Of a DNA stretch of 39,892 bases, positions 1-39,892 are shown one piece after another. A program made the translations under genes and the position numbers. The stretch spans positions 1-39,892 of the IMG/VR virus record IMGVR_UViG_3300021131_000019. One strand, 5' to 3'. This DNA comes from a virus. The notes under the pieces are model-generated. The model saw only the letters and a program-made list of their open reading frames with translations. It had not been told where the DNA came from and searched no databases. Position 1 is the first letter of the stretch. Each line of letters starts with the position of its first letter.

Positions 1-99
1 TATACACCTGCTAAAACAAAAGCATACGAAGAAGAAATCCGCGATGCTGCCAAGCAAGCAATGGGTGTCTCAGAGCCGTTAGCCGGTGCTGTAAAGGTT
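1..99. repeat. Left copy of 99-bp terminal overlap
   Basis: Bases 1-99 are identical to bases 39794-39892. Joining the ends over this overlap keeps one open reading frame (RusA) intact. This is what a circular contig looks like when the assembler repeats one k-mer length at the ends. It is more likely an assembly overlap than a biological terminal repeat, because it lies inside a coding gene and its length is odd and k-mer-like. Confidence 0.95.
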
Positions 100-339
100 T
101 ATGTGATGTGTGCTTACCCAATGCCTAAGTCAATGAGTAAAGCAGACCGAGCAAAGGCCCTTTTAGGCGATTTGAAGCCTACTAAGAAGCCTGACCTAGA
201 CAATGTAGCCAAAGCTCATTTAGACGCTTTAAACGGCGTTATTTACGTTGATGATGCTCAGATTGTTAGGCTGCAAGTGAGCAAGGTTTACGGTGAGCAT
301 CCGTGTGTTGAAGTTATTGTTATGGAAGATTTGCAATGA
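1..339 (+). CDS. rusA: RusA-like Holliday junction resolvase, C-terminal part (gene continues from 39704)
   Basis: This is the 3' part of a gene whose 5' end is at 39704-39793. Across the circular join the protein has 142 residues, close to the usual RusA length of about 120-140. RusA is a dimeric endonuclease that cuts four-way DNA junctions symmetrically, here probably to resolve recombination intermediates before packaging. Seen in the sequence: an N-terminal GSPQGKGRPR segment (residues 11-20) and the acidic catalytic cluster KPDLDN (D95, D97) followed by VDD (D114/D115), which match the three catalytic aspartates known for E. coli RusA. The downstream zinc-ribbon gene starts at 336 and overlaps the stop (ATGA). 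A start at 61 would remove the N-terminal substrate-binding part and should not be used. Confidence 0.93.
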   Translation, partial: YTPAKTKAYEEEIRDAAKQAMGVSEPLAGAVKVYVMCAYPMPKSMSKADRAKALLGDLKPTKKPDLDNVAKAHLDALNGVIYVDDAQIVRLQVSKVYGEHPCVEVIVMEDLQ

Positions 340-635
340 AATGCCCTGAATGTGGAACTTGGACAGAAGTTTTAGAGACAAGAAAGCATGGAGAGAATGG
401 GAAAAGACGTAGATATGAATGTGCAAACGAGCATAGATTTACAACATTGGAGCAAGTAGTCGATGGAATCTCCGTTCAACTATCCGGAAGGACCGCCAGA
501 ATGGTTCAAGGAATTGCAAAGGGAAAAAAGACGAGCCTACCGAGCGAAGAAGTTAGGCCGACCTATTGGCAAATGGGGAGGTTACAGGAAGGGAGCAGGG
601 AGGCCGAGGGAGAAGGATTACACACATACGGTTAA
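336..635 (+). CDS. Small zinc-ribbon protein (NrdR-type finger only)
   Basis: The first 40 residues look like the zinc ribbon of the transcription factor NrdR: C3-x2-C6, then RRRYEC (C29) and H33, followed by RFTTLEQ. The fourth ligand is a histidine instead of the usual cysteine. The ATP-cone domain of NrdR is missing, so this is not a ribonucleotide-reductase repressor. A DNA- or RNA-binding role is an inference. It starts in an ATGA overlap with rusA. From residue 43 on the reading frame overlaps the next gene (463-732) by 173 bases, and its C-terminal half is low in family-like character, rich in G, R and E. Either the tail is a passenger of a long overlap or a frameshift lies near 455-463, where a stop (TAG) sits in the neighbouring frame just before the next ATG. 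Confidence 0.7.
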   Translation: MKCPECGTWTEVLETRKHGENGKRRRYECANEHRFTTLEQVVDGISVQLSGRTARMVQGIAKGKKTSLPSEEVRPTYWQMGRLQEGSREAEGEGLHTYG

Positions 636-732
636 CCTAAACCTCAACACTATTCAAGTGTCAGCATTGTTAGACATGGGTGAGGGCGATATTCGCAAAG
701 GATTGGAAGCCCTTATCAATCGTTATATGTAA
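463..732 (+). CDS. Small basic protein, possible ribbon-helix-helix/AT-hook DNA binder
   Basis: An 89-residue protein. Residues about 20-50 are very basic and contain GRPIGKWGGYRKGAGRPR, with two GRP cores like AT-hooks. Residues 53-89 (TVNLNLNTIQVSALLDMGEGDIRKGLEALI) have the strand-helix-helix rhythm of ribbon-helix-helix or MetJ/Arc-type domains. This suggests DNA binding, perhaps as a small regulator in the early-right operon. It is followed after 9 bases by the next gene, with AAAGGA as ribosome-binding site for that gene. It overlaps the upstream zinc-ribbon frame over 173 bases; codon sense here favours this frame. Confidence 0.65.
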   Translation: MESPFNYPEGPPEWFKELQREKRRAYRAKKLGRPIGKWGGYRKGAGRPREKDYTHTVNLNLNTIQVSALLDMGEGDIRKGLEALINRYM

Positions 733-741
733 AGGATTGTT

Positions 742-1068
742 ATGAATGAAGAAGACGCATTTAGAGCTATTGACTTTGTAAAGAAAAGCGCAGAGCAATA
801 CGGCCAAGCTAAGGCCGATGTGAGCTACATAGAAAAGTATTTGACCAGCCTAAAAAGCGAGTTGATGGGCGAGGAAACAGGAACGCTGGGTGCAAAAGAA
901 GCGTATGCCTACAGTCACCCACGCTACAAGGATCAACTGCAAGCCCTCAAAATAGCGGTAGCAGAAGAAGCAAAGCTCAAATACCTACTAGAAGCAGCCA
1001 AGATGACCATTGAGGTCTTTAAGACGCTGGAGTTTAGTAAGCGTGTAGAGATGAGGGCTTTTCAATAA
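742..1068 (+). CDS. Conserved phage coiled-coil protein of unknown function
   Basis: A 108-residue, mostly helical protein with many A, K, E and L. The pattern (two long helices, with a central GAKEAYAYSHPRYKDQLQAL segment) is one I recognise from many small proteins in early operons of proteobacterial phages, but no function is known to me. No catalytic motif, signal peptide or membrane segment is visible. It starts after an AAAGGATTGTT ribosome-binding site and its stop forms a TAATG overlap with the 28-codon gene that follows, so it is translationally coupled to it. Its position between rusA and the YbcO-like nuclease suggests a recombination- or replication-linked role (inference). Confidence 0.8.
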   Translation: MNEEDAFRAIDFVKKSAEQYGQAKADVSYIEKYLTSLKSELMGEETGTLGAKEAYAYSHPRYKDQLQALKIAVAEEAKLKYLLEAAKMTIEVFKTLEFSKRVEMRAFQ

Positions 1069-1154
1069 TGTGGCCGTTTCCTACTAAGCTGCCGCCCAGC
1101 AAACCTGGAGAGCCTAAATTTAACCCCGATAACTTTGAAGAAGCACCTTTTTAA
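1068..1154 (+). CDS. 28-residue proline-rich microprotein
   Basis: The reading frame MWPFPTKLPPSKPGE...EEAPF is only 28 codons long. Its ATG overlaps the stop of the upstream gene (TAATG at 1066-1070), and its TAA overlaps the ATG of the downstream YbcO-like gene in the same way (1152-1156). It therefore fills the interval exactly, which is strong evidence that it is translated. Six of the 28 residues are prolines, so it is probably unstructured. Function unknown; it may also serve to couple translation of its neighbours. Confidence 0.6.
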   Translation: MWPFPTKLPPSKPGEPKFNPDNFEEAPF

Positions 1155-1528
1155 TGTATAGATCAAACGACCTATTAGCCCTTGCTGAAGGGCAACCATG
1201 CTTGTTAGGAATTAGCTCAAGGTGCTTAGGCTCAGAAGGCTCTACAACGGTTGCAGCGCACTCAAACAGCTATCAGCATGGGAAAGGTAAGGCAATCAAG
1301 GCTGAGGACGTATACACGGTCTGGGCGTGTTATTACTGCCATGAGGTGCTGGATAGTGGTAAGAAGTTGGGAAGAAAAGAAAAAGAAGAAGCCTTTGACC
1401 AAGCGCATCTAAAACAAATAGAAGAGTGGACAAAGATAGCCACCAACCCAACAATCAGACCTTGGAAGAAAAAAGTAGCAGAAGATGCTATTAGATATTT
1501 AGCTAAAAAGCACTTGGTAGAAAATTAA
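1154..1528 (+). CDS. YbcO-like (DUF1364) HNH-type nuclease/recombinase
   Basis: A 124-residue protein with the hallmarks of the DUF1364/YbcO family: an AEGQPCL start motif (C16), C24, the AAHSN segment (H36), HGKGKAIKA, and ACYYCHEVLDSGK (C59, C62, H63). These cysteines and histidines would form a zinc-bound beta-beta-alpha nuclease core. Members of this family sit in the nin-like region of lambdoid prophages, often near rusA, and are thought to act in phage recombination. The context here is the same: RusA lies five genes upstream. It is the last gene of the early-right operon and is followed by non-coding repeats. Its start is fixed by the TAATG overlap. Confidence 0.85.
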   Translation: MYRSNDLLALAEGQPCLLGISSRCLGSEGSTTVAAHSNSYQHGKGKAIKAEDVYTVWACYYCHEVLDSGKKLGRKEKEEAFDQAHLKQIEEWTKIATNPTIRPWKKKVAEDAIRYLAKKHLVEN

Positions 1529-1543
1529 GCCGCCCCTAAAAAT

Positions 1544-1575
1544 TTGATGGGGGGGTCATTTATTGATGGGGGGTC
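1544..1575 (+). repeat. Direct repeat of TTGATGGGGGGTC
   Basis: TTGATGGGGGGGTC (1544-1557) and TTGATGGGGGGTC (1563-1575) lie 19 bases apart and differ by one G. The purpose is unknown. Long G-runs are rare outside the two control regions of this genome. Confidence 0.7.
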
Positions 1576-1608
1576 TTAAACCACAAACAGACCCAAAAAC
1601 ACCCATCG

Positions 1609-1718
1609 GATTATCTGATTATCTAACCCCCTCCCCTCATATAATCGGAGATAATCGGTCAAAATAATACATAATCACGCTATATAATAACGCTATATAA
1701 TCACGCTGATAATCACAT
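1609..1718 (+). repeat. Iteron-like AT-rich tandem repeats (candidate replication origin)
   Basis: Three 13-bp units follow each other without gap: ATAATCACGCTAT (1671), ATAATAACGCTAT (1684) and ATAATCACGCTGA (1697), with a partial fourth ATAATCACAT at 1709. Upstream are two AGATAATCGG-like units (ATAATCGG at 1641 and 1651) and, in the opposite orientation, GATTATCT twice in tandem (1609-1624). All share the core ATAATC. Such phased AT-rich repeats outside genes are typical of phage replication origins or of multi-site operators. Which of the two cannot be decided from the sequence. Confidence 0.6.
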
Positions 1719-1769
1719 GGCAAAGCAAAGCCCTAGCCAAGCGGCTATTTTAAAAGAAAACACCAAACA

Positions 1770-1790
1770 AAGCCCCTAATTTAAGGGCTT
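1770..1790 (-). terminator. Leftward rho-independent terminator
   Basis: AAGCCC (1770-1775) pairs with GGGCTT (1785-1790) around a short loop. On the minus strand the stem is followed by TTTGTTTGGTGTTTTCTTTT, a T-rich tail. It lies about 30 bases after the stop of the last leftward gene (1819), so it probably ends the leftward operon. Confidence 0.6.
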
Positions 1791-1818
1791 GATACTATGC
1801 AATGCGAATCGGGTTTTT

Positions 1819-2019
1819 TTATAATGATTCAATTGCGTTATAAAGCGGCAGAATCACGCTCTGGTATGTCATACCGCCGTCAGTAGGAATGACGTTTACA
1901 AACTGAGCGCCGCTCTCTACTGGCTTACTCAATCGTTGGATCATCACGGGCGCTTCGTCATAGTCAGGGCCAAAGACATAGGCAAAGCCTGACCCGCTGG
2001 GTGTGATAGTTTCAAACAT
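1819..2019 (-). CDS. Small hypothetical protein, last gene of leftward operon
   Basis: A 66-residue protein of unknown function, starting MFETITPSG. The start at 2019 is chosen over an upstream in-frame ATG at 2037 because AAGGGGTTTAACT precedes it, the same leader that is found at three other genes of this operon. The upstream ATG has no such site. No membrane segment, cysteine pair or known motif is visible. It lies beyond the strong terminator at 2123-2146, so it is expressed by read-through or from an unseen promoter. Confidence 0.7.
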   Translation of the reverse strand: MFETITPSGSGFAYVFGPDYDEAPVMIQRLSKPVESGAQFVNVIPTDGGMTYQSVILPLYNAIESL

Positions 2020-2055
2020 AGTTAAACCCCTTAACATAAAAAAAGGTCAATCAAA

Positions 2056-2077
2056 CGCCTACACAAAAGCATAGGCG
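2056..2077 (-). repeat. Inverted repeat CGCCTA/TAGGCG in leader of last leftward gene
   Basis: CGCCTA (2056-2061) and TAGGCG (2072-2077) form a perfect 6-bp stem with a 10-base loop. It lies between the terminator at 2123-2146 and the gene starting at 2019. It could be a leader hairpin or a weak terminator; on the minus strand TTTGATTGACCTTTTTTT follows. Confidence 0.45.
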
Positions 2078-2122
2078 AAGCAATGATAAGCCAGCCACTA
2101 AAGGCCAGCCTAAGCAATAGAG

Positions 2123-2146
2123 ATAAAAAAAAGGGCCGAAGCCCTT
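2123..2146 (-). terminator. Strong leftward terminator with UUCG tetraloop
   Basis: On the minus strand AAGGGC-TTCG-GCCCTT is followed directly by a run of eight T. The UUCG loop closed by C-G is exceptionally stable. It starts just 3 bases after the stop of the gene at 2149, a textbook position. It splits the leftward operon and should reduce expression of the final gene. Confidence 0.9.
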
Positions 2147-2148
2147 AG

Positions 2149-2334
2149 TTATCGGTAATACCGAAGCCCATCAATAGGGCAAACAATCCATTGTTTTAGA
2201 TCGCCGTTAGCTTTTGCCCATAGAGAGCGGGGAAATTCTTTATAGTGTGTTGCACCATGTCCAAAACGAATTTCGCTTGGTGTCGGGTTTCTATGCGCCG
2301 TGATAGAACGATCAGGATCAATGAAATCAAACAT
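2149..2334 (-). CDS. Small hypothetical protein
   Basis: A 61-residue protein starting MFDFIDPDRS and ending IVCPIDGLRYYR. It is rich in aromatic and charged residues. I do not recognise the family. The start is supported by AAGGGGTAAACC immediately before ATG. The stop codon of the gene upstream (2345) overlaps this ribosome-binding site. A strong terminator follows. Confidence 0.75.
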   Translation of the reverse strand: MFDFIDPDRSITAHRNPTPSEIRFGHGATHYKEFPRSLWAKANGDLKQWIVCPIDGLRYYR

Positions 2335-2344
2335 GGTTTACCCC

Positions 2345-2617
2345 TTAATGACGTGATGCGGCTTTTTGTTTGTTCATTTCATACCATGCGGCAAGCCATT
2401 TTTTGGCTTCGCTTGTAGTTTTAAAAATGAAAGGTTCAATAACAGAACCGTGGGCGGCTTGATAGTGCGTGCCATAGTCAAGAACGGTTAAATCATAGCT
2501 CGCAAATCCATCTTCACGCATTTCACACTCAAGAACCGCGTCATATGCTTTTAAACAATTAGGGTTGAACACTTCCATAGTGAAGCCTGAAGCTGGCTTA
2601 AATTTTAAGATTGACAT
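2345..2617 (-). CDS. Small hypothetical protein
   Basis: A 90-residue protein. The segment DGFASYDLTVLDYGTHYQAA followed by FIFKTTSEAKKWLAAWYEMN suggests a small alpha/beta fold in which the last helix (residues about 68-85) is amphipathic. No known motif. It begins after AAGGGGTAAACG, the leader shared in this operon. It lies 3 bases after the stop of the hydrophobic 30-residue gene upstream. Confidence 0.8.
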   Translation of the reverse strand: MSILKFKPASGFTMEVFNPNCLKAYDAVLECEMREDGFASYDLTVLDYGTHYQAAHGSVIEPFIFKTTSEAKKWLAAWYEMNKQKAASRH

Positions 2618-2620
2618 CGT

Positions 2621-2713
2621 TTACCCCTTGAGAAACATAAGAACAGCGGCTGGGCCAGCGAATAAGGCCACAAAGACAATCGCTAAGGCCAGATCAATAA
2701 AAAATTGTTTCAT
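2621..2713 (-). CDS. 30-residue single-span membrane microprotein
   Basis: The frame MKQFFIDLALAIVFVALFAG... continues through PAAVLMFLKG and encodes one hydrophobic helix over residues 4-27 with a lysine at each end. Its ATG overlaps the stop of the gene upstream (ATGA at 2710-2713), and its TAA lies inside the ribosome-binding leader of the gene downstream, so it fits the operon exactly. It is too short for most gene callers. A role at the host membrane is likely, but which one is unknown. Confidence 0.65.
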   Translation of the reverse strand: MKQFFIDLALAIVFVALFAGPAAVLMFLKG

Positions 2714-2988
2714 TCTTCATCCCCTGAGTGACGATCCTCAAGCATTTCAATAGCCCAATCTAAAGCCTGATTGAATCCATCACCGTCATACTTACGGCTT
2801 ACATATGCCAAGACTGTTTTTATGTCTTCGCTTGACGGCTTAATCTTGCTTTCGTTGCTATCTAGTTGATCAATAACATCATCAACAGATACTGTCACCA
2901 TGTCAAAGATGCCCAGCTTTTGGCTTACTTGGAAGCGGAGCATATAAAGTTCACGATCTGTCAATCCATCTAAAATAATTGTGTTCAT
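2710..2988 (-). CDS. Small acidic hypothetical protein
   Basis: A 92-residue acidic protein. The first half (LTDRELYMLRFQVSQKL, then VDDVIDQLDSNE) looks helical; the second half has YVSRKYDGDGFNQALDWAIE and an acidic end DRHSGDEE. I do not recognise it. The start follows AAAGG eight bases upstream, within a 20-bp leader that is 18/20 identical to the leader of the first gene of the operon (2998-3017 against 3582-3601). Confidence 0.8.
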   Translation of the reverse strand: MNTIILDGLTDRELYMLRFQVSQKLGIFDMVTVSVDDVIDQLDSNESKIKPSSEDIKTVLAYVSRKYDGDGFNQALDWAIEMLEDRHSGDEE

Positions 2989-3071
2989 TGTTTGCTACCT
3001 TTAAGTGTTACTTTCTACTAGATGCACATTGCATCCAATAGCCCTAGCAAGTAAGGCTATTAGCTAAAATG

Positions 3072-3269
3072 TTAAGCGGTTACAGCTTCAATAGCTGGCG
3101 AATCCGTGCATATACAAACAATGCGTTCAAACCTAAGTGCACCCGCTAAAGTGCAAACAGTGACATTCTTGCCCGTGTGTGTGTAGCTCTCAACACGCAT
3201 GCGTTTACCATGCACCGTGATGATCTGGCCGATCTTGTAAGATTGTTTAGGGATAAAAGCGAATTTCAT
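3072..3269 (-). CDS. Small hypothetical protein, possible beta-barrel
   Basis: A 65-residue basic protein with alternating hydrophobic residues (YKIGQIITVHGKRMRVESY, then VTVCTLAGALRFERIVCI). This rhythm suggests a small beta-barrel such as an SH3- or KOW-like fold; that is inference. The start follows GAGGGGTAAATT, the shared leader. It is the second gene of the leftward operon, 10 bases after the first. Confidence 0.8.
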   Translation of the reverse strand: MKFAFIPKQSYKIGQIITVHGKRMRVESYTHTGKNVTVCTLAGALRFERIVCICTDSPAIEAVTA

Positions 3270-3279
3270 AATTTACCCC

Positions 3280-3567
3280 TCAAACGGCGATGTAGTTTGT
3301 GCAACGATGACGACGGCGTGCGTCAAACCCGTTAGGTTTGCGTTGACCTTTGATGAGCAAAGCATCAATGCTAAAGCCTTTGCCGCTCTCAAATTCTCGT
3401 TCTTTGATGAGCTTTTCTTTGAGTTCTTGAACTCTTGCTTCAACCCGATCCAACGAGCCCTCATAGTATTCACGGTGAACCGTTGACATTGGGTAAGTAG
3501 TAACAAAACCCTCAATAGCACCGCGCTCCGATGGCGAAGCGTGAATAATGAACTTATATGATTTCAT
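3280..3567 (-). CDS. Small hypothetical protein, first gene of leftward operon
   Basis: A 95-residue basic protein starting MKSYKFIIHASPSERGAIEG. A charged helix covers residues about 38-62 (LDRVEARVQELKEKLIKER). The C-terminus is strongly basic (KGQRKPNGFDARRRHR), which suggests nucleic-acid contact. No family recognised. As the first gene behind a good promoter (3629-3657) it is probably made early and in quantity. The ribosome-binding site AAAGGGAG lies about 10 bases before ATG. Confidence 0.8.
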   Translation of the reverse strand: MKSYKFIIHASPSERGAIEGFVTTYPMSTVHREYYEGSLDRVEARVQELKEKLIKEREFESGKGFSIDALLIKGQRKPNGFDARRRHRCTNYIAV

Positions 3568-3628
3568 GGTGAATGATTCTCCCTTTAAGGTTTACTTTCT
3601 AAGATGCCCTGATGTAGAGCATGGATAG

Positions 3629-3657
3629 ATTATAAGCACACCTATACACCAGAGCAA
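3629..3657 (-). promoter_or_regulatory. Leftward sigma70-like promoter
   Basis: On the minus strand TTGCTC (3657-3652) and a perfect TATAAT (3634-3629) are separated by 17 bases. It lies about 60 bases upstream of the first leftward gene. Confidence 0.75.
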
Positions 3658-3729
3658 CAAAAAAGCACAAAAAAACTCAACTGAAAACCCTAATGGTTTT
3701 ATATACAGTAGTTAGTTAAAAGCTATCGA

Positions 3730-3754
3730 CACTTGATTATTGATAACTCAAGTG
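3730..3754. repeat. Inverted repeat CACTTGA-N11-TCAAGTG
   Basis: The 7-bp arms are perfect (3730-3736 and 3748-3754). The centre-to-centre distance of about 18 bp fits a dimeric repressor site on one DNA face. It lies upstream of the leftward promoter. No T-tract follows, so it is not a terminator. Confidence 0.5.
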
Positions 3755-3759
3755 AATCA

Positions 3760-3906
3760 ATGGCCATTGGCAAAGATCGTGCCAAGTTAACCCAGCAAGT
3801 AAACAAAGCAGGGCAAAACATAAGACGGAAATCGCGTAAAGAAAAAAGAAAAGAAAAGCACCAAGTTCTGTCTGTCTTCTTTCACTTCATAGAGGGAAAA
3901 CAGTAA
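3760..3906 (+). CDS. Possible 48-residue basic ORF (weak)
   Basis: ATG at 3760 opens a frame of 48 codons whose central part is extremely basic (IRRKSRKEKRKEKH). The ribosome-binding site is poor (AAGTGAATCA), and the frame overlaps the GTAAGAGA repeats. It may be spurious in an AG-rich control region. Confidence 0.25.
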   Translation: MAIGKDRAKLTQQVNKAGQNIRRKSRKEKRKEKHQVLSVFFHFIEGKQ

Positions 3907-3923
3907 GAGAAACAGTAAGAGAG
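3901..3923 (+). repeat. CAGTAAGAGA tandem pair
   Basis: CAGTAAGAGA occurs at 3901-3910 and 3913-3922 with a 12-bp period. The core GTAAGAGA recurs in the opposite orientation at 4177-4211. Confidence 0.75.
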
Positions 3924-4057
3924 CATGAGAGCCAGATCAAAAGCATCAGCGACTATTAAATTGAATATAAGTTAATCACTACTAAAACAAAAACATAAAA
4001 GAGAGCGGCCCCTCCCTAAATCTTTTCATCCCCCCCTATTCTCAGAGGGAAAGCGTA

Positions 4058-4080
4058 GGGGCAGGGGGGAGGGGGTAGGG
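4058..4080 (+). other. G-quadruplex motif
   Basis: Four G-tracts of 4, 6, 5 and 3 bases (4058-4061, 4064-4069, 4071-4075, 4078-4080) are separated by one- or two-base loops. This meets the usual G3+N1-7 rule with very short loops, which favours a stable structure. Further G-runs follow at 4097-4102, and a run of seven C lies at 4030-4036. Confidence 0.8.
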
Positions 4081-4154
4081 CTGGAGCGGTGGCAGAGGGG
4101 GGAGGCCCAGTCACCCATTCCCAAATTTTTTACAAAAACTTTTCTAAGTCAGCT

Positions 4155-4160
4155 TATACT
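4155..4160 (+). promoter_or_regulatory. Rightward -10 element for late genes
   Basis: TATACT within CTTATACTACG lies about 78 bases before the first late gene. The -35 is weak (TACAAA region around 4131-4137), so an activator or a phage factor may be needed. The paired ACTCTCTCTTAC repeats lie in the untranslated leader just downstream. Confidence 0.45.
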
Positions 4161-4176
4161 ACGCACCAGAGTGTTT

Positions 4177-4211
4177 ACTCTCTCTTACAGGAAATGGACA
4201 CTCTCTCTTAC
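4177..4211 (-). repeat. ACTCTCTCTTAC direct repeat (inverse of GTAAGAGA pair)
   Basis: ACTCTCTCTTAC occurs at 4177-4188 and 4200-4211, 23 bp apart. Its reverse complement contains GTAAGAGAG, the core of the pair at 3901-3923. Two direct copies therefore face two inverted copies across about 250 bp. Confidence 0.75.
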
Positions 4212-4237
4212 GGTAAAACGACACCAAAGGAATAGAA

Positions 4238-4744
4238 ATGAGATGGGAACTGATTGATCCGAGGACGGATGTAGAGGCTGTTGTAGAGATGGCTGATGGG
4301 ATTTACGGGGCTGAGAGTGATGGATTTGTGGTGAGGGACAGGAATGTGTTTAGACAGCACGTTACTGTTACGGCTACTAATCAGTTGTTTGATAAGAGTA
4401 AAGAGTTCTTAGCGGGATGCTGGAACGGGGAGAAGTTGCTGGGGTATTGTTGGTTTGACCGTGGTGGATATACGACTTATTCTAGGGATGAGATTAGTAA
4501 TGCTAAGTTCCACCATGTTGACCTTGCGTTGCCGGTAAGAACGAGGTATAAACTGATTAATGCGATGATTGACCAGCACATATTGTGGGCGGCACATTGC
4601 GGTATTCCTGTTATTTGTTCGAGCAGCATACGGTCGGAGCAGGATGCCTTCTTGAAAATTCATGCAAAACGTGGTTTTAAGGTAAATGGATCGTATGCTT
4701 GGGGTCGTACATCTGAGCTATTGGAGAGAATGAATGCTTCCTGA
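4238..4744 (+). CDS. GNAT-fold acetyltransferase-like protein
   Basis: A 168-residue protein with the layout of a GNAT N-acetyltransferase: an N-terminal helix region, a central strand pair (LLGYCWFDRGG), the HHVDLALPVRTRYKLINAMID segment in place of the acetyl-CoA loop and helix, and a C-terminal AFLKIHAKRGFKVNGSYAW (residues about 140-158), where GF is the usual end motif. The canonical Q/R-x-x-G-x-G/A loop is not clear, so activity is uncertain. It is the first late gene, upstream of and overlapping by 11 bases the candidate small terminase, a position where many podophages carry a GNAT-like protein. It may modify a virion or host protein (inference). Confidence 0.65.
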   Translation: MRWELIDPRTDVEAVVEMADGIYGAESDGFVVRDRNVFRQHVTVTATNQLFDKSKEFLAGCWNGEKLLGYCWFDRGGYTTYSRDEISNAKFHHVDLALPVRTRYKLINAMIDQHILWAAHCGIPVICSSSIRSEQDAFLKIHAKRGFKVNGSYAWGRTSELLERMNAS

Positions 4745-5162
4745 AAAAATTCGGGCCTCCGGCGAAAAGGTAACTACACCTGAAGAGCTTGCATATCGTA
4801 AAGAAAAGCGGGCTGCTAAAAAAACAGGACAAGTTATTGAAAAAGCCAAGTCTGTTGGTCGGCCTAAAAGTGTTGTTAATCGGGTTACTGAATACGGTGC
4901 TTTGTTTAACCGTATGAATGATGAACGTGCTGCTGTTGGCTTGCCTCCATTAAAGACTGCTATGGAGGTGTTAATTGATGCCATGCAAAGCGAAGAGATT
5001 GATCTAAGGGATAAGGCTAGGATTGCTGATAAACTAGCACCGTTTGAATCTTCTAGAGCGCCGATTATTTCTATTGAGCACGTTAATAATGTTCAAGAGA
5101 AAGAGGAAGTTGATGCTGATGAAGCATTGGCTGATTTTTTGTCTGCCTTAAATAAGGTGTAA
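4734..5162 (+). CDS. Candidate small terminase subunit
   Basis: A 142-residue protein with a basic N-terminal half (KEKRAAKKTGQ, KSVGRPKSVVNR) and a C-terminal helical part ending in an acidic tail (EKEEVDADEALADFLSALNKV). The segment LRDKARIADKLAPFESSRAP resembles the linker found in small terminase or terminase-like DNA-recognition proteins of several phage groups. TerS binds the pac site and loads TerL. Its place a few genes upstream of terL, its size and its charge fit; I cannot see a certain HTH motif. The alternative is an unknown DNA-binding protein, with TerS being the 213-residue protein at 5869. Confidence 0.5.
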   Translation: MLPEKIRASGEKVTTPEELAYRKEKRAAKKTGQVIEKAKSVGRPKSVVNRVTEYGALFNRMNDERAAVGLPPLKTAMEVLIDAMQSEEIDLRDKARIADKLAPFESSRAPIISIEHVNNVQEKEEVDADEALADFLSALNKV

Positions 5163-5165
5163 ACT

Positions 5166-5309
5166 ATGCCGTTGAAAAAGGGTAAGTCTGAAAAGACTTT
5201 TAAAGAAAACATCAAAACTGAAGTTAAAGCTGGGAAGCCAGATAAACAAGCAGTTGCGATCGCTTATGCTATGAAGCGTGAATCTGGCAAAAAACGAAAG
5301 GTGAAATAA
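5166..5309 (+). CDS. 47-residue basic phage protein (DUF6496-like)
   Basis: The frame MPLKKGKSEKTFKENIKTEV...KQAVAIAYAMKRESGKK is a small basic protein of a type I recognise from many phages (usually MPLKKGKS...I...GKP.KQAVAIA). Function unknown; the high lysine content suggests DNA contact or a minor virion component. Its TAA overlaps the next ATG (TAATG). Confidence 0.85.
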   Translation: MPLKKGKSEKTFKENIKTEVKAGKPDKQAVAIAYAMKRESGKKRKVK

Positions 5310-5626
5310 TGCACTACACATCTGGAAATAATGCTCCCACGCTGATGGCTCAAGCGCCTAACCGTGTGGGTAACAAGTCTAAGTTTGTTGCTACCGGCAA
5401 AGGTGGCGCTACTGCTGAGACCCGTCCTGAAGGCTCTACTATGTATGGCGAAGGCCATGAAGTTAAGATGAAGCCAAAAGGTTCTCCTGAAGCTGGCCGT
5501 GGTCAAAAAGTGACTGCCAAGCGCGGCAAAGGTACTGATGGTCCCGCTACTAACAACGGCTTTTTGGGCAGCGAAGACAAACGAGTGCGTGGCTCGTTGT
5601 ATCGCGGCAATAACAAGGATTGCTAA
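5309..5626 (+). CDS. Basic, low-complexity hypothetical protein
   Basis: A 105-residue protein rich in glycine, lysine and threonine with few hydrophobic residues (KMKPKGSPEAGRGQKVTAKR), so it is probably disordered. No motif. It is coupled by TAATG to the preceding basic protein and followed 3 bases later by another small gene. The three together look like a set of small DNA-associated or capsid-decorating proteins before the terminase; this is inference. Confidence 0.75.
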   Translation: MHYTSGNNAPTLMAQAPNRVGNKSKFVATGKGGATAETRPEGSTMYGEGHEVKMKPKGSPEAGRGQKVTAKRGKGTDGPATNNGFLGSEDKRVRGSLYRGNNKDC

Positions 5627-5628
5627 TC

Positions 5629-5859
5629 ATGTCCGGATATGGTCGCGTAATTTCTGGTGGTGCACAAGTTTCCAAAGGAAACAACACCAAACAAATTAAC
5701 GACAAATTGGAAGGCTTTGAGGAAAAGCATGAGCGGTCTGAAAAGATTGCTGGTGCTGTTCGTGAAGGCATGAACAATGTCGTTATGGAAGGACCCCGCC
5801 GTCTTAAAGTGAACGGTGGTAAATTCGAGGCTAACAAGTCTAATTACACATACAAGTAA
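5629..5859 (+). CDS. Small hypothetical protein
   Basis: A 76-residue protein starting MSGYGRVISGG. The start at 5629 is preferred to an upstream TTG at 5620 because ATG is better placed behind AAGGAT. A central charged helix (KLEGFEEKHERSEKIAGAVREG) is the only structural element visible. Unknown function. Confidence 0.75.
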   Translation: MSGYGRVISGGAQVSKGNNTKQINDKLEGFEEKHERSEKIAGAVREGMNNVVMEGPRRLKVNGGKFEANKSNYTYK

Positions 5860-5868
5860 AGGAAAAGT

Positions 5869-6510
5869 ATGGCAACGTATGATATTGATGCTTTAAAAGC
5901 AGACTTACCCACGGCTAAAGAGCTGGCTCAGTTTGTCTATGACCAAACAGGGCTGGCGCTTAACCTTGTTGGCCGCAAAAAAGATGACCAGTACATCGCA
6001 GCTAAAAATGCTTTAGAAGGAAAAGTCGTTCCTAAAGAGTTCATTACTACGGACAACCCGTATGTGGACAAACGGGAAATGATTCCTGTGGATGAGGTTA
6101 AAAAGGTTCCTCCTCGCTCATCTACATTGCCTCCTACTGATACGCAAATTCATCAGTTTGTGGCTACAAATATGCCTCACCCGCAAGACCCGCAATCGGA
6201 TCACAAGGTGCAAATTTGTTTCCGCAAATACAGTAATGAATTAATTACTTACCAAATTGTTGGCCCTCTGGTTCAGCAAGCTGTTGGCACTCGTATCAAT
6301 AAGTTTGGTCAAACAGTTCCTGAACGCTATACCTGGATGGACCCACGCACACCTGAAACTGTGTTGCGTAATCCTGATGGCACGTTTACTAAAGATGGCC
6401 GAGGTCTTTACACATACTGCGCCGGTGAAAAAGGTGCTGGTATTTGGACTTTGATTGACAAGCGCATGATGGAAGTCACCGCTAAAAACATTACCAATCC
6501 GTGGGATTAA
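5869..6510 (+). CDS. Conserved hypothetical protein in packaging module
   Basis: A 213-residue protein starting MATYDIDALKADLPTAKELA after AGGAAAAGT. The first 50 residues read like a helical domain that could hold an HTH. Residues about 65-110 are proline-rich and extended (IPVDEVKKVPPRSSTLPPTD). The remainder is mixed alpha/beta. I do not recognise it. Its position before terL makes a packaging role possible, including that of small terminase if the protein at 4734 is not that. Confidence 0.75.
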   Translation: MATYDIDALKADLPTAKELAQFVYDQTGLALNLVGRKKDDQYIAAKNALEGKVVPKEFITTDNPYVDKREMIPVDEVKKVPPRSSTLPPTDTQIHQFVATNMPHPQDPQSDHKVQICFRKYSNELITYQIVGPLVQQAVGTRINKFGQTVPERYTWMDPRTPETVLRNPDGTFTKDGRGLYTYCAGEKGAGIWTLIDKRMMEVTAKNITNPWD

Positions 6511-6699
6511 ATGGAAGATTTCGCAACCGTCTTTAGAGAGCGTCTATCTGGTCAGGCTGAAGCTTGCGCCCGTAAAACGCTTGAATGGCTGCAAAAAGAC
6601 CTCCAAGGCGCCCATAAACTGGAACCTGAACAGGTCTATTATCTCGCTAGTGCCGCAGAAATTCTGCTGACGTTGCGCGATACCTATGGCAAAAAGTGA
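6511..6699 (+). CDS. Small helical hypothetical protein
   Basis: A 62-residue protein made of two or three predicted helices (FRERLSGQAEACARKTLEWLQ; VYYLASAAEILLTLRDTYG). It starts right after the upstream stop, and its last five codons overlap terL by 14 bases. It may assist terminase assembly (inference from position only). Confidence 0.75.
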   Translation: MEDFATVFRERLSGQAEACARKTLEWLQKDLQGAHKLEPEQVYYLASAAEILLTLRDTYGKK

Positions 6700-8278
6700 A
6701 GCTAGTGATTACGTCCAGCCAGTATTTAAAGACAGGGCGTTAAAGCATTTAGTGAAGTTGGCTGGTGGCAAGAGCGTTGTTAAGCTCTTTACCCCAGACC
6801 AATACAAAAAGATGATGCTTGCCAGGGACAAGATTGCACATGATATGCAATTCAATGCCCTGAAATGGTTTCGTCCTTTTCCTTATCAGCAAAAATTTTT
6901 TGAAACCGGCAATAAATTTACCCGCCGTGGCATGATTGCTGCCAACCGCGCCGGTAAAACCATTGCATCTACATACGAAACCGCATACCACCTAACTGGC
7001 CGCTATCCCAAAGGCTGGAAAGGCAAGACGTTTGACGGTCCAATTATTGCTATGTGCGCTGGTGAATCCTGGGAGCAGGTCGCCAAAACGCTACAGTCCA
7101 AGATGCTTGGCTGTGATGATATTAAGCAGGGTTATAAATTAGGAACCGGCTCAATCCCCAAGGAGTGTATTGATGATAAAAGTATGCGTACTGACGGGGC
7201 TAATGTACTTGCTATTGAAATTTGGCATACAACCGGAGGTAAATCCAAGTTGTATTTCTCCAACTACACCCAACAAGTCCGTCACCTGCAAGGTTTTGAG
7301 CTTGATTTAGTTGTATTGGATGAGCAGCCGCCAGACGAGACATTCTCTGAGTTGGTTGTGCGTACCGCAGCGCGTAATGGGCAGGTCATTTGCTCATTTA
7401 CACCGCTCAAAGGTATGTCAGGGCTTGTGCGTAAGTTTTGGGATAGTGTAGACGGGTACACACACGTTCGCGTTACATGGGATGACGTGCCGTATGAGAA
7501 TGAATGGGGTGAGCCATTCTTTACAAAGTCTGAACGTGAGCAGTTGGCTCGTGACTTTATGCCGTGGGAACGCGAATGCCGTATGAATGGTATTCCGCTG
7601 GTCGGCCAAGGTGTTGTATTTCCTATTTTGGATTGGCCAATTTATAAAACTTCTGACATTGATTTCAAGAATAATGAAAAGCTTGAACGACTAATCAGCT
7701 TTGACTTAGGGATCAAGAATGACCCAACTGTTATTTCCTTTTTATTTCGCGATCCTTTTACAGAAAATATCTACTTACATCGCCAGATTAAAGTGCCTAG
7801 CGGTGAAACACCTGACGAGTATGTTCACTATCTTCTTGATAGAGAATCTAGGGGGGTTCCTATCGCTTTACCACATGATGCTGGACAAGCTGGACGATAT
7901 ACATTAACCGAGCAATCGGTGCGGGAAGTTTTTGAGGACAATTACGGTCTCAATGTTATAGCTGGTGCTATACTTAACCCAGCCAATGACCAAGGCAAGG
8001 TTACTAACCATAAATCTTATGGTATTAACGTCATGCGGATTGGCATGGAACGTGGGTCTTTAATGATTAACGAAGATTGCAAGGCATTTTTGGACGAAGC
8101 ACGAAATTATGCAATTGACCAAAATGGCCGTTTTAGCGATCCTGATGACCATATTGACTCAGCACGAATTGGAATATTAGCGTTGATTCAAGGCCACGGA
8201 GAATCATTAGTAAGCCATGCTAATAACTTTGCAAAGCGTAGAATCGCTCCTATTGAGGGCAAAGTCCAAAGGATTTAA
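6686..8278 (+). CDS. terL: Terminase large subunit (ATPase-nuclease)
   Basis: The 530-residue packaging motor protein. The N-terminal ATPase has a Walker A-like AANRAGKT (85-92), a Walker B LDLVVLDEQ with D212-E213, and motif III SFTPLKG (237-243). The C-terminal RNase H-like nuclease starts near residue 336 with LISFDLGIKNDPT (D340), followed by LPHDAG (D398) and DDHIDSARIG near the end, which supply the metal-binding acids. It pumps DNA into the prohead through the portal and cuts it when full. The length is usual. The A-N-R-A-G-K-T variant is common in terminases of P22- and SU10-like podophages. A headful mode fits the circular assembly. Confidence 0.95.
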   Translation: MAKSEASDYVQPVFKDRALKHLVKLAGGKSVVKLFTPDQYKKMMLARDKIAHDMQFNALKWFRPFPYQQKFFETGNKFTRRGMIAANRAGKTIASTYETAYHLTGRYPKGWKGKTFDGPIIAMCAGESWEQVAKTLQSKMLGCDDIKQGYKLGTGSIPKECIDDKSMRTDGANVLAIEIWHTTGGKSKLYFSNYTQQVRHLQGFELDLVVLDEQPPDETFSELVVRTAARNGQVICSFTPLKGMSGLVRKFWDSVDGYTHVRVTWDDVPYENEWGEPFFTKSEREQLARDFMPWERECRMNGIPLVGQGVVFPILDWPIYKTSDIDFKNNEKLERLISFDLGIKNDPTVISFLFRDPFTENIYLHRQIKVPSGETPDEYVHYLLDRESRGVPIALPHDAGQAGRYTLTEQSVREVFEDNYGLNVIAGAILNPANDQGKVTNHKSYGINVMRIGMERGSLMINEDCKAFLDEARNYAIDQNGRFSDPDDHIDSARIGILALIQGHGESLVSHANNFAKRRIAPIEGKVQRI

Positions 8279-37717: not shown

Positions 37718-37900
37718 ATGGAATTCTCAAAGGAAAAGGCGATTCAACTTGCTGGTGGTCAGCAGCGCCTTGCAGAGCTACTAGGCATCAGCCAACCATC
37801 GGTAAGCCAATGGAAAAAAAATGTGCCTATAGCTCGTGTGTGGCAGTTGCGTGTTTTGAAGCCGGATTGGTTTATTTTGAAAGAAGCTGAACCAACCTAA
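37718..37900 (+). CDS. Cro-like repressor (P22 Cro/YdaS type)
   Basis: A 60-residue protein. Residues 8-35 (AIQLAGGQQRLAELLGISQP then SVSQWKK) form a helix-turn-helix; the GISQPSVSQWKKNVP core is very close to that of P22 Cro. ATG 37718 lies 5 bases behind AGGAG; a GTG at 37712 falls inside that site and is rejected. It should bind operators in the adjacent 150-bp gap and control both early promoters. A rightward -10-like TGTGATAACAT lies at 37686-37696 without a good -35. No CI-type partner gene is present between the divergent operons. Confidence 0.88.
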   Translation: MEFSKEKAIQLAGGQQRLAELLGISQPSVSQWKKNVPIARVWQLRVLKPDWFILKEAEPT

Positions 37901-39707: not shown

Positions 39708-39892
39708 CATTTATGGTCACCTATCGGGTTGAAGGCTCACCGCAAGGCAAAGGACGGCCACGGTTTCGCAATACTGGCAAGTTCGTACAAATTTATACAC
39801 CTGCTAAAACAAAAGCATACGAAGAAGAAATCCGCGATGCTGCCAAGCAAGCAATGGGTGTCTCAGAGCCGTTAGCCGGTGCTGTAAAGGTT
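39704..39892 (+). CDS. rusA: RusA-like Holliday junction resolvase, N-terminal part (continues at base 1)
   Basis: The start ATG at 39704 overlaps the stop of the preceding gene. Codons 1-30 lie at 39704-39793, and the frame continues with base 1 of the window. The last 99 bases repeat the beginning, so residues encoded by 39794-39892 are the same as those of 1-99. See the entry at 1-339 for the active-site residues. Confidence 0.93.
   Translation, partial: MTFMVTYRVEGSPQGKGRPRFRNTGKFVQIYTPAKTKAYEEEIRDAAKQAMGVSEPLAGAVKV
39794..39892. repeat. Right copy of 99-bp terminal overlap
   Basis: Identical to bases 1-99. After removal of one copy the circle measures 39,793 bp. Confidence 0.95.

Follow-up and report, generated by a model that had tools for sequence, protein, structure and literature searches.

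The seven small leftward genes at positions 1819-3567 of IMGVR_UViG_3300021131_000019 occupy an accessory-gene hotspot, a slot with conserved flanks and variable content very probably shared across a family of freshwater podoviruses, and on balance we favour the reading that they form an early, exchangeable host-takeover or counter-defence locus. The window analysed is the whole virus record, 39,892 nt in length. End-to-end comparison of the record showed that bases 1-99 are identical to bases 39794-39892, and from this exact recurrence the record very likely represents a circular genome, closed at 39,793 bp, with an overlap left by the assembler. The phage, with its genome of about 39.8 kb, is a member of a freshwater podovirus family. 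Profile searches identified rightward late genes encoding terminase (6686-8278), portal, major head protein, tail fibres, endolysin and a spanin-like protein, and a separate leftward block encoding a Sak-like annealing protein. A further rightward block encodes a Cro/repressor-like HTH protein, located at 37718-37900 in a divergent control region, and a replication initiation protein, and runs past the record end into RusA and HNH genes. No integrase match was found among the scanned proteins of this phage. The leftward cassette lies between a rightward HNH endonuclease gene (1154-1528, PHROG 131), which is the left flank of the hotspot, and a rightward gene (4238-4744) for a conserved 168-aa protein, which is the right flank and opens the terminase/late operon; the label acetyltransferase-like for this protein is our own, with no PHROG match. 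The cassette is transcribed opposite to the late genes, as an earlier note made from the sequence alone had stated.

The seven ORFs proposed in that note (95, 65, 92, 30, 90, 61 and 72 aa) were all confirmed in place. They are real genes and not chance ORFs, since a codon-based gene caller trained on long ORFs from related phages picks all seven and since differences from relatives are mostly synonymous in five of them. The exception to the proposed coordinates is the start of g7, which the gene caller places at 2019 (66 aa, with an AAGGGG ribosome site), a better choice than 2037. Strong purifying selection acts on g1 (dN/dS 0.04-0.16 against relatives), g2 (0.14), g4 (0.13-0.38), g5 (0.05-0.09) and g6 (0.08-0.10), an overall range of 0.04-0.38 in which pairs with saturated dS were given no ratio, and differences are concentrated at third codon positions. 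Support for g3 and g7 as genes consists of codon score and ribosome-binding site. From the upstream end, all on the leftward strand, g1 (3280-3567, 95 aa) is the first cassette gene, with a basic conserved C-terminus and 12 IMG/VR relatives (65-95%), and g2 (3072-3269, 65 aa) belongs to a widespread small phage family with 97 relatives. The acidic g3 (2710-2988, 92 aa), called by the codon model, is an orphan for which sequence searches found no relatives, and its end overlaps by 4 nt with g4 (2621-2713, 30 aa), a predicted single-pass membrane microprotein; hydrophobic proteins of 30-32 aa similar to g4 recur across relatives' cassettes. There follow g5 (2345-2617, 90 aa; nine IMG/VR loci, eight of them full-length and at 73-94% identity), g6 (2149-2334, 61 aa; PHROG 38643, 66 viral loci) and g7 (1819-2019, 66 aa), which lies downstream of a terminator at 2146-2131 and has one relative (94%).

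The earlier note had seen no recognisable family in any of these proteins. This remains true of structural families, but g6 is a member of PHROG 38643 and g1, g2, g4 and g5 are metagenomic phage families with up to 97 relatives. Searches of g1-g7 against Pfam and PHROGs found no known anti-defence or takeover protein and no virion or lysis family, and no HTH family was present, so that an Aca-type regulator of anti-CRISPR operons was not found; g1, g2, g5 and g6 gave no match above noise against PDB sequences. Structure prediction, which the note had proposed as a check, gave moderately confident AlphaFold2 models for g1 (pLDDT 80.6) and g6 (pLDDT 80.3). A fold search with the g1 model returned no PDB match, and one with the g6 model returned no PDB match and only two uncharacterised viral proteins, so these models neither support nor exclude the proposed role.

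Comparison with relatives defines the slot. Of 80 terminase relatives sampled, 42 loci, a few of them near-duplicates, extend far enough to show it, and in each the HNH and acetyltransferase-like genes enclose 1-8 small genes, all leftward. These runs hold 168 leftward genes with a median length of 84 aa and not one rightward gene. The flanking terminase-side clusters 5, 4 and 3 are present in 42 of 42 loci, while the slot content falls into 77 families, 54 of them singletons, with a median pairwise Jaccard index of 0. Hardly any of g1-g7 recur in the slots of close relatives, where they are represented by a g6 homologue in L087 and remnants in L067 and L070; the slot of L033 holds a weakly similar g4-type membrane protein. 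The same arrangement is seen in the public record MW202484, annotated by others, in which ten leftward CDS without assigned function (39125-41399) occupy this slot and directly precede the late operon located at the record start. We found no published description of the hotspot in the open-licence literature.

The cassette families extend well beyond this podovirus family. Members of the g1, g2, g4, g5 and g6 families occur in phages with terminases of other lineages, and operons headed or joined by g1, g2, g5 or g6 diverge from the terminases of several lineages. The operon faces the terminase or its small-subunit-like neighbour in 65 of the 80 loci with a visible divergent neighbour, a count in which some small-subunit-like clusters were assigned by position and not by profile. 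RecE/YqaJ or RecT genes lie downstream on the operon strand in 13 loci, and a primase/helicase gene does so in L007; all of these are genes commonly used early by phages, although same-strand runs do not prove a single transcript. Of the loci fetched with g2, 17 encode an ArdC-N-domain protein of 75-101 aa, often with its gene directly beside g2, and the one member tested matched at 29.8 bits (cut-off 22.6). The protein is not present in the window phage and none was seen in the 42 same-family cassettes. ArdC of plasmid R388 defeats type I restriction, its protease activity being dispensable and its N-terminal domain binding single-stranded DNA (PMC7213743), and ArdC-N has been placed among early conflict proteins (PMC5512222). 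By analogy, the co-occurrence of ArdC-N with g2 hints at conflict, with anti-restriction action of the domain alone being putative.

Other recurrent operon families are GP88, DUF7227, a beta-clamp-like protein (PF02767) and DUF7249, and NinX (PF10765) also occurs. The beta-clamp-like protein, of 206-228 aa and resembling DNA polymerase III beta clamp (L043:2573-3211, L072:3246-3866, L019:4160-4846, L255:4502-5125), is labelled a RusA-like resolvase by one PHROG family, probably a misannotation. The earlier note had named membership of the seven proteins in known structural families as grounds against its reading; among 96 representative proteins from such operons no structural family appeared in the matches listed (the first 25 of 47 PHROGs and 16 of 16 Pfam families), and a Pfam match to XhlA fell below the cut-off.

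A profile search matched g6 to PHROG 38643 over residues 9-61 (53 residues, E 5.1e-16). It carries the motif HRxPTxxEIRFGxGATHY...DDGLRYYR, and R15, P17, T18, E21, G25, A28, H30 and K47 are invariant in an alignment of 44 sequences. Relatives are found in the named phages RcBigEagle, RcRios, CcrPW, CcrColossus, ACF1 and JWF: in the Caulobacter jumbo phage CcrPW the relative (gp27) lies inside the annotated terminal repeat, in CcrColossus (gp26) within the redundant genome end, in the Rhodobacter phage RcBigEagle it is the last gene, and in ACF1 and JWF it lies within runs of small genes. Judged by its database distribution the family is essentially viral, because a set of 84,980 species genomes yielded relatives in no more than 3 loci and a search for plasmid relatives found none. 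In other phage contigs (L138, L139, L141 and L131-L133), g6-family proteins carry N-terminal extensions or a mid-protein insertion of about 30 residues.

The expression signals on which the earlier note had based a private operon fared less well. The candidate leftward promoter TTGCTC-17-TATAAT (3629-3657), with a 61-nt leader to g1, has a perfect -10 element (TATAAT, 3634-3629) and a spacer of 17 nt, but its -35 element (TTGCTC, 3657-3652) matches consensus at 3 of 6 positions; its z-score is 1.5, 3 of 60 shuffles were equally good, and a promoter scanner listed no promoter at 3629-3657. Across 41 loci, sigma70-like sites were not enriched upstream of the equivalent operon (mean z 0.01), and TATAAT occurred there in 3 loci against 6 expected. 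Being neither above shuffles nor conserved, the promoter was rejected as an argument for a private early operon. Phage-specific or leader-borne expression signals are possible. The claim of dedicated terminators was borne out. Positions 1-6000 contain 12 terminators on both strands against 5.8 in shuffles, and three leftward ones lie at the cassette: a strong intrinsic terminator, AAGGGCTTCGGCCCTT-TTTTTTTT, at 2131-2146, a second terminator-like hairpin at 2056-2077, and a terminator-like hairpin after g7 at 1770-1790, which faces the rightward HNH operon. The first two lie between g6 and g7, and because the best leftward terminator separates these genes, g7 may be transcribed on its own or reached by read-through. 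A leader GCATCT-TAGAAAGTAA-CTTAAAGG is common to g1 (3570-3610) and g3 (2989-3025), and GAAAGTAA occurs upstream of 13 of 167 hotspot genes, compared with 1 in a set of 424 late or long genes. AAGGGG-type ribosome sites precede 14% of cassette genes in the window and its relatives and 0.8% of late genes, which favour AGGA sites.

Between the cassette and the late operon lies a divergent non-coding region (3568-4237), and in almost all relatives a non-coding region, mostly of 600-1500 bp, likewise separates the two. In the window it contains a conserved G-rich element at about 4026-4135, within the stretch 4020-4140 adjoining the terminase operon, which is partly common to 27 of 43 relatives; across the family the region often holds this element, with CCCCCCTA copies, GGGGGTAGGGCTGGA and GGGGGGCCCACTCACCCATTCCCAAA. 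Packaging sites of the cos or pac kind would be looked for beside terminase genes, and this G-rich region is a candidate packaging site. Contig ends cluster loosely within it, scattered rather than at one base, and do not define a packaging terminus, since assembly breaks at G-runs would give the same pattern; the element is a spot where metagenomic contigs tend to break. No long terminal repeat was seen in the window phage. In lambda, packaging runs toward the late genes and the right end enters first; were packaging to start in this non-coding region and follow that direction, the cassette would lie at the end that leaves the virion first. Repeats of CTCTCTTACNG lie at 3901-3923 and 4177-4213, two copies on each side in opposite orientation, and the match count was equalled in 1 of 100 shuffles. 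The motif is not conserved in relatives, and shared regulation through it was rejected, as was a structured RNA, for which there was only a sub-threshold chance match to Rfam.

Taken together, these observations are best accommodated if the cassette is one allele of a hotspot in this podovirus family, with the packaging-proximal non-coding region separating it from the terminase operon, from which its transcription diverges; at this hotspot small, independently acting genes would be swapped between phages through mosaic recombination. Host RNA polymerase would transcribe the operon shortly after the DNA has entered the cell, and the operon may be among the first DNA to enter, like the right end of lambda. 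On this view every protein would have a binding partner in the host, for instance RNA polymerase, a nuclease, or an enzyme of restriction or of another defence, and that of g4 would be the membrane. Early expression is probable. From sequence comparison we hold with modest confidence that the locus serves mainly counter-defence or takeover, because of the turnover at the hotspot, the sharing across lineages, the ArdC-N association, the early-type genes on the same strand and the g6 relatives in terminal repeats. The few recognisable operon neighbours count against it, being mostly DNA-metabolism proteins or proteins without assigned function (GP88, beta-clamp-like, HNH, NinX) and not anti-defence proteins. 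The conclusion of the earlier note, that this is a host-takeover or anti-defence cassette, is therefore partly supported, though by evidence other than the reasons it gave, and its argument from a private promoter fails.

An unlikely alternative, on the model of the nin region of lambdoid phages, is that the exchangeable cassette genes assist replication and recombination; the small proteins would then serve the DNA metabolism of the phage itself and not counter-defence. The same-strand RecE/YqaJ, RecT, RusA and primase/helicase genes of other lineages, the PF02767 beta-clamp-like and PF10765 NinX proteins among operon families, and the RusA and HNH genes to the left of the window cassette are all in agreement with such a role. 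However, the window cassette is on its own strand, away from the replication and recombination genes, its extreme turnover without a conserved core gene is a poor fit to an essential role in DNA metabolism, and the co-occurrence of ArdC-N points toward conflict. It is more improbable still that these are morons, that is, late or constitutive accessory genes, for example for superinfection exclusion, with no tie to early takeover. The cassette's own terminators, the predicted 30-aa membrane protein g4, the Cro/repressor-like HTH protein elsewhere in the genome and the inverted pair of CTCTCTTACNG repeats, which faces the cassette and the late operon and could mean shared control, would be consistent with this; against it stand the lack of an integrase match among the scanned proteins, the scarcity of g6 relatives in species genomes, which is not that of a typical prophage gene, the failure of the CTCTCTTACNG motif to be conserved in relatives, and the presence, in other lineages, of recombination and replication genes on the operon strand. 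That the ORFs are spurious, or the remnants of decaying genes, is very hard to credit: they are small, and g3 and g7 are orphan or near-orphan, but low dN/dS, third-position bias, ribosome sites and lengths conserved in relatives argue otherwise, and selection on g1, g2, g4, g5 and g6 contradicts it.

If the takeover or counter-defence reading is correct, a terminase-divergent position would guide the discovery of anti-defence and takeover proteins without known similarity, much as the leading region did in plasmids. Being small and of wide distribution, g2 and g6 lend themselves to immediate screening. More tentatively, many aquatic phages of unrelated packaging lineages may share a terminase-divergent hotspot beside the packaging site that enters first and is the phage counterpart of plasmid leading-region anti-defence islands; g1, g2, g4, g5 and g6 together with about 200 other families would in that case represent a large undescribed store of counter-defence and takeover proteins.

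Among known systems, the nin region and delayed-early accessory genes of lambdoid phages likewise form a small, exchangeable and mostly dispensable run, and a NinX homologue is present in one related operon; in contrast, the cassette described here lies opposite the late-gene strand, outside the replication operon, and has no nin gene. PHROG 38643, the family of g6, has no assigned function. The cassette can also be compared with the terminal-repeat small-gene regions of phiCbK-like and Colossus Caulobacter phages, and with the pre-early region of T5 (PMC3556154). The g6 relatives CcrPW gp27 and CcrColossus gp26 sit in those Caulobacter phage regions among many small genes without assigned function; the window phage, a podovirus of 39.8 kb, has only g6 in common with them. 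The anti-defence islands in the leading regions of conjugative plasmids (PMC11541004) similarly consist of small, mostly uncharacterised genes at a fixed place by the site of DNA transfer and processing, with anti-restriction genes in some members. The present cassette, whose entry order and anti-defence action are putative, differs in being carried by a phage and in having the terminase operon as its constant neighbour.
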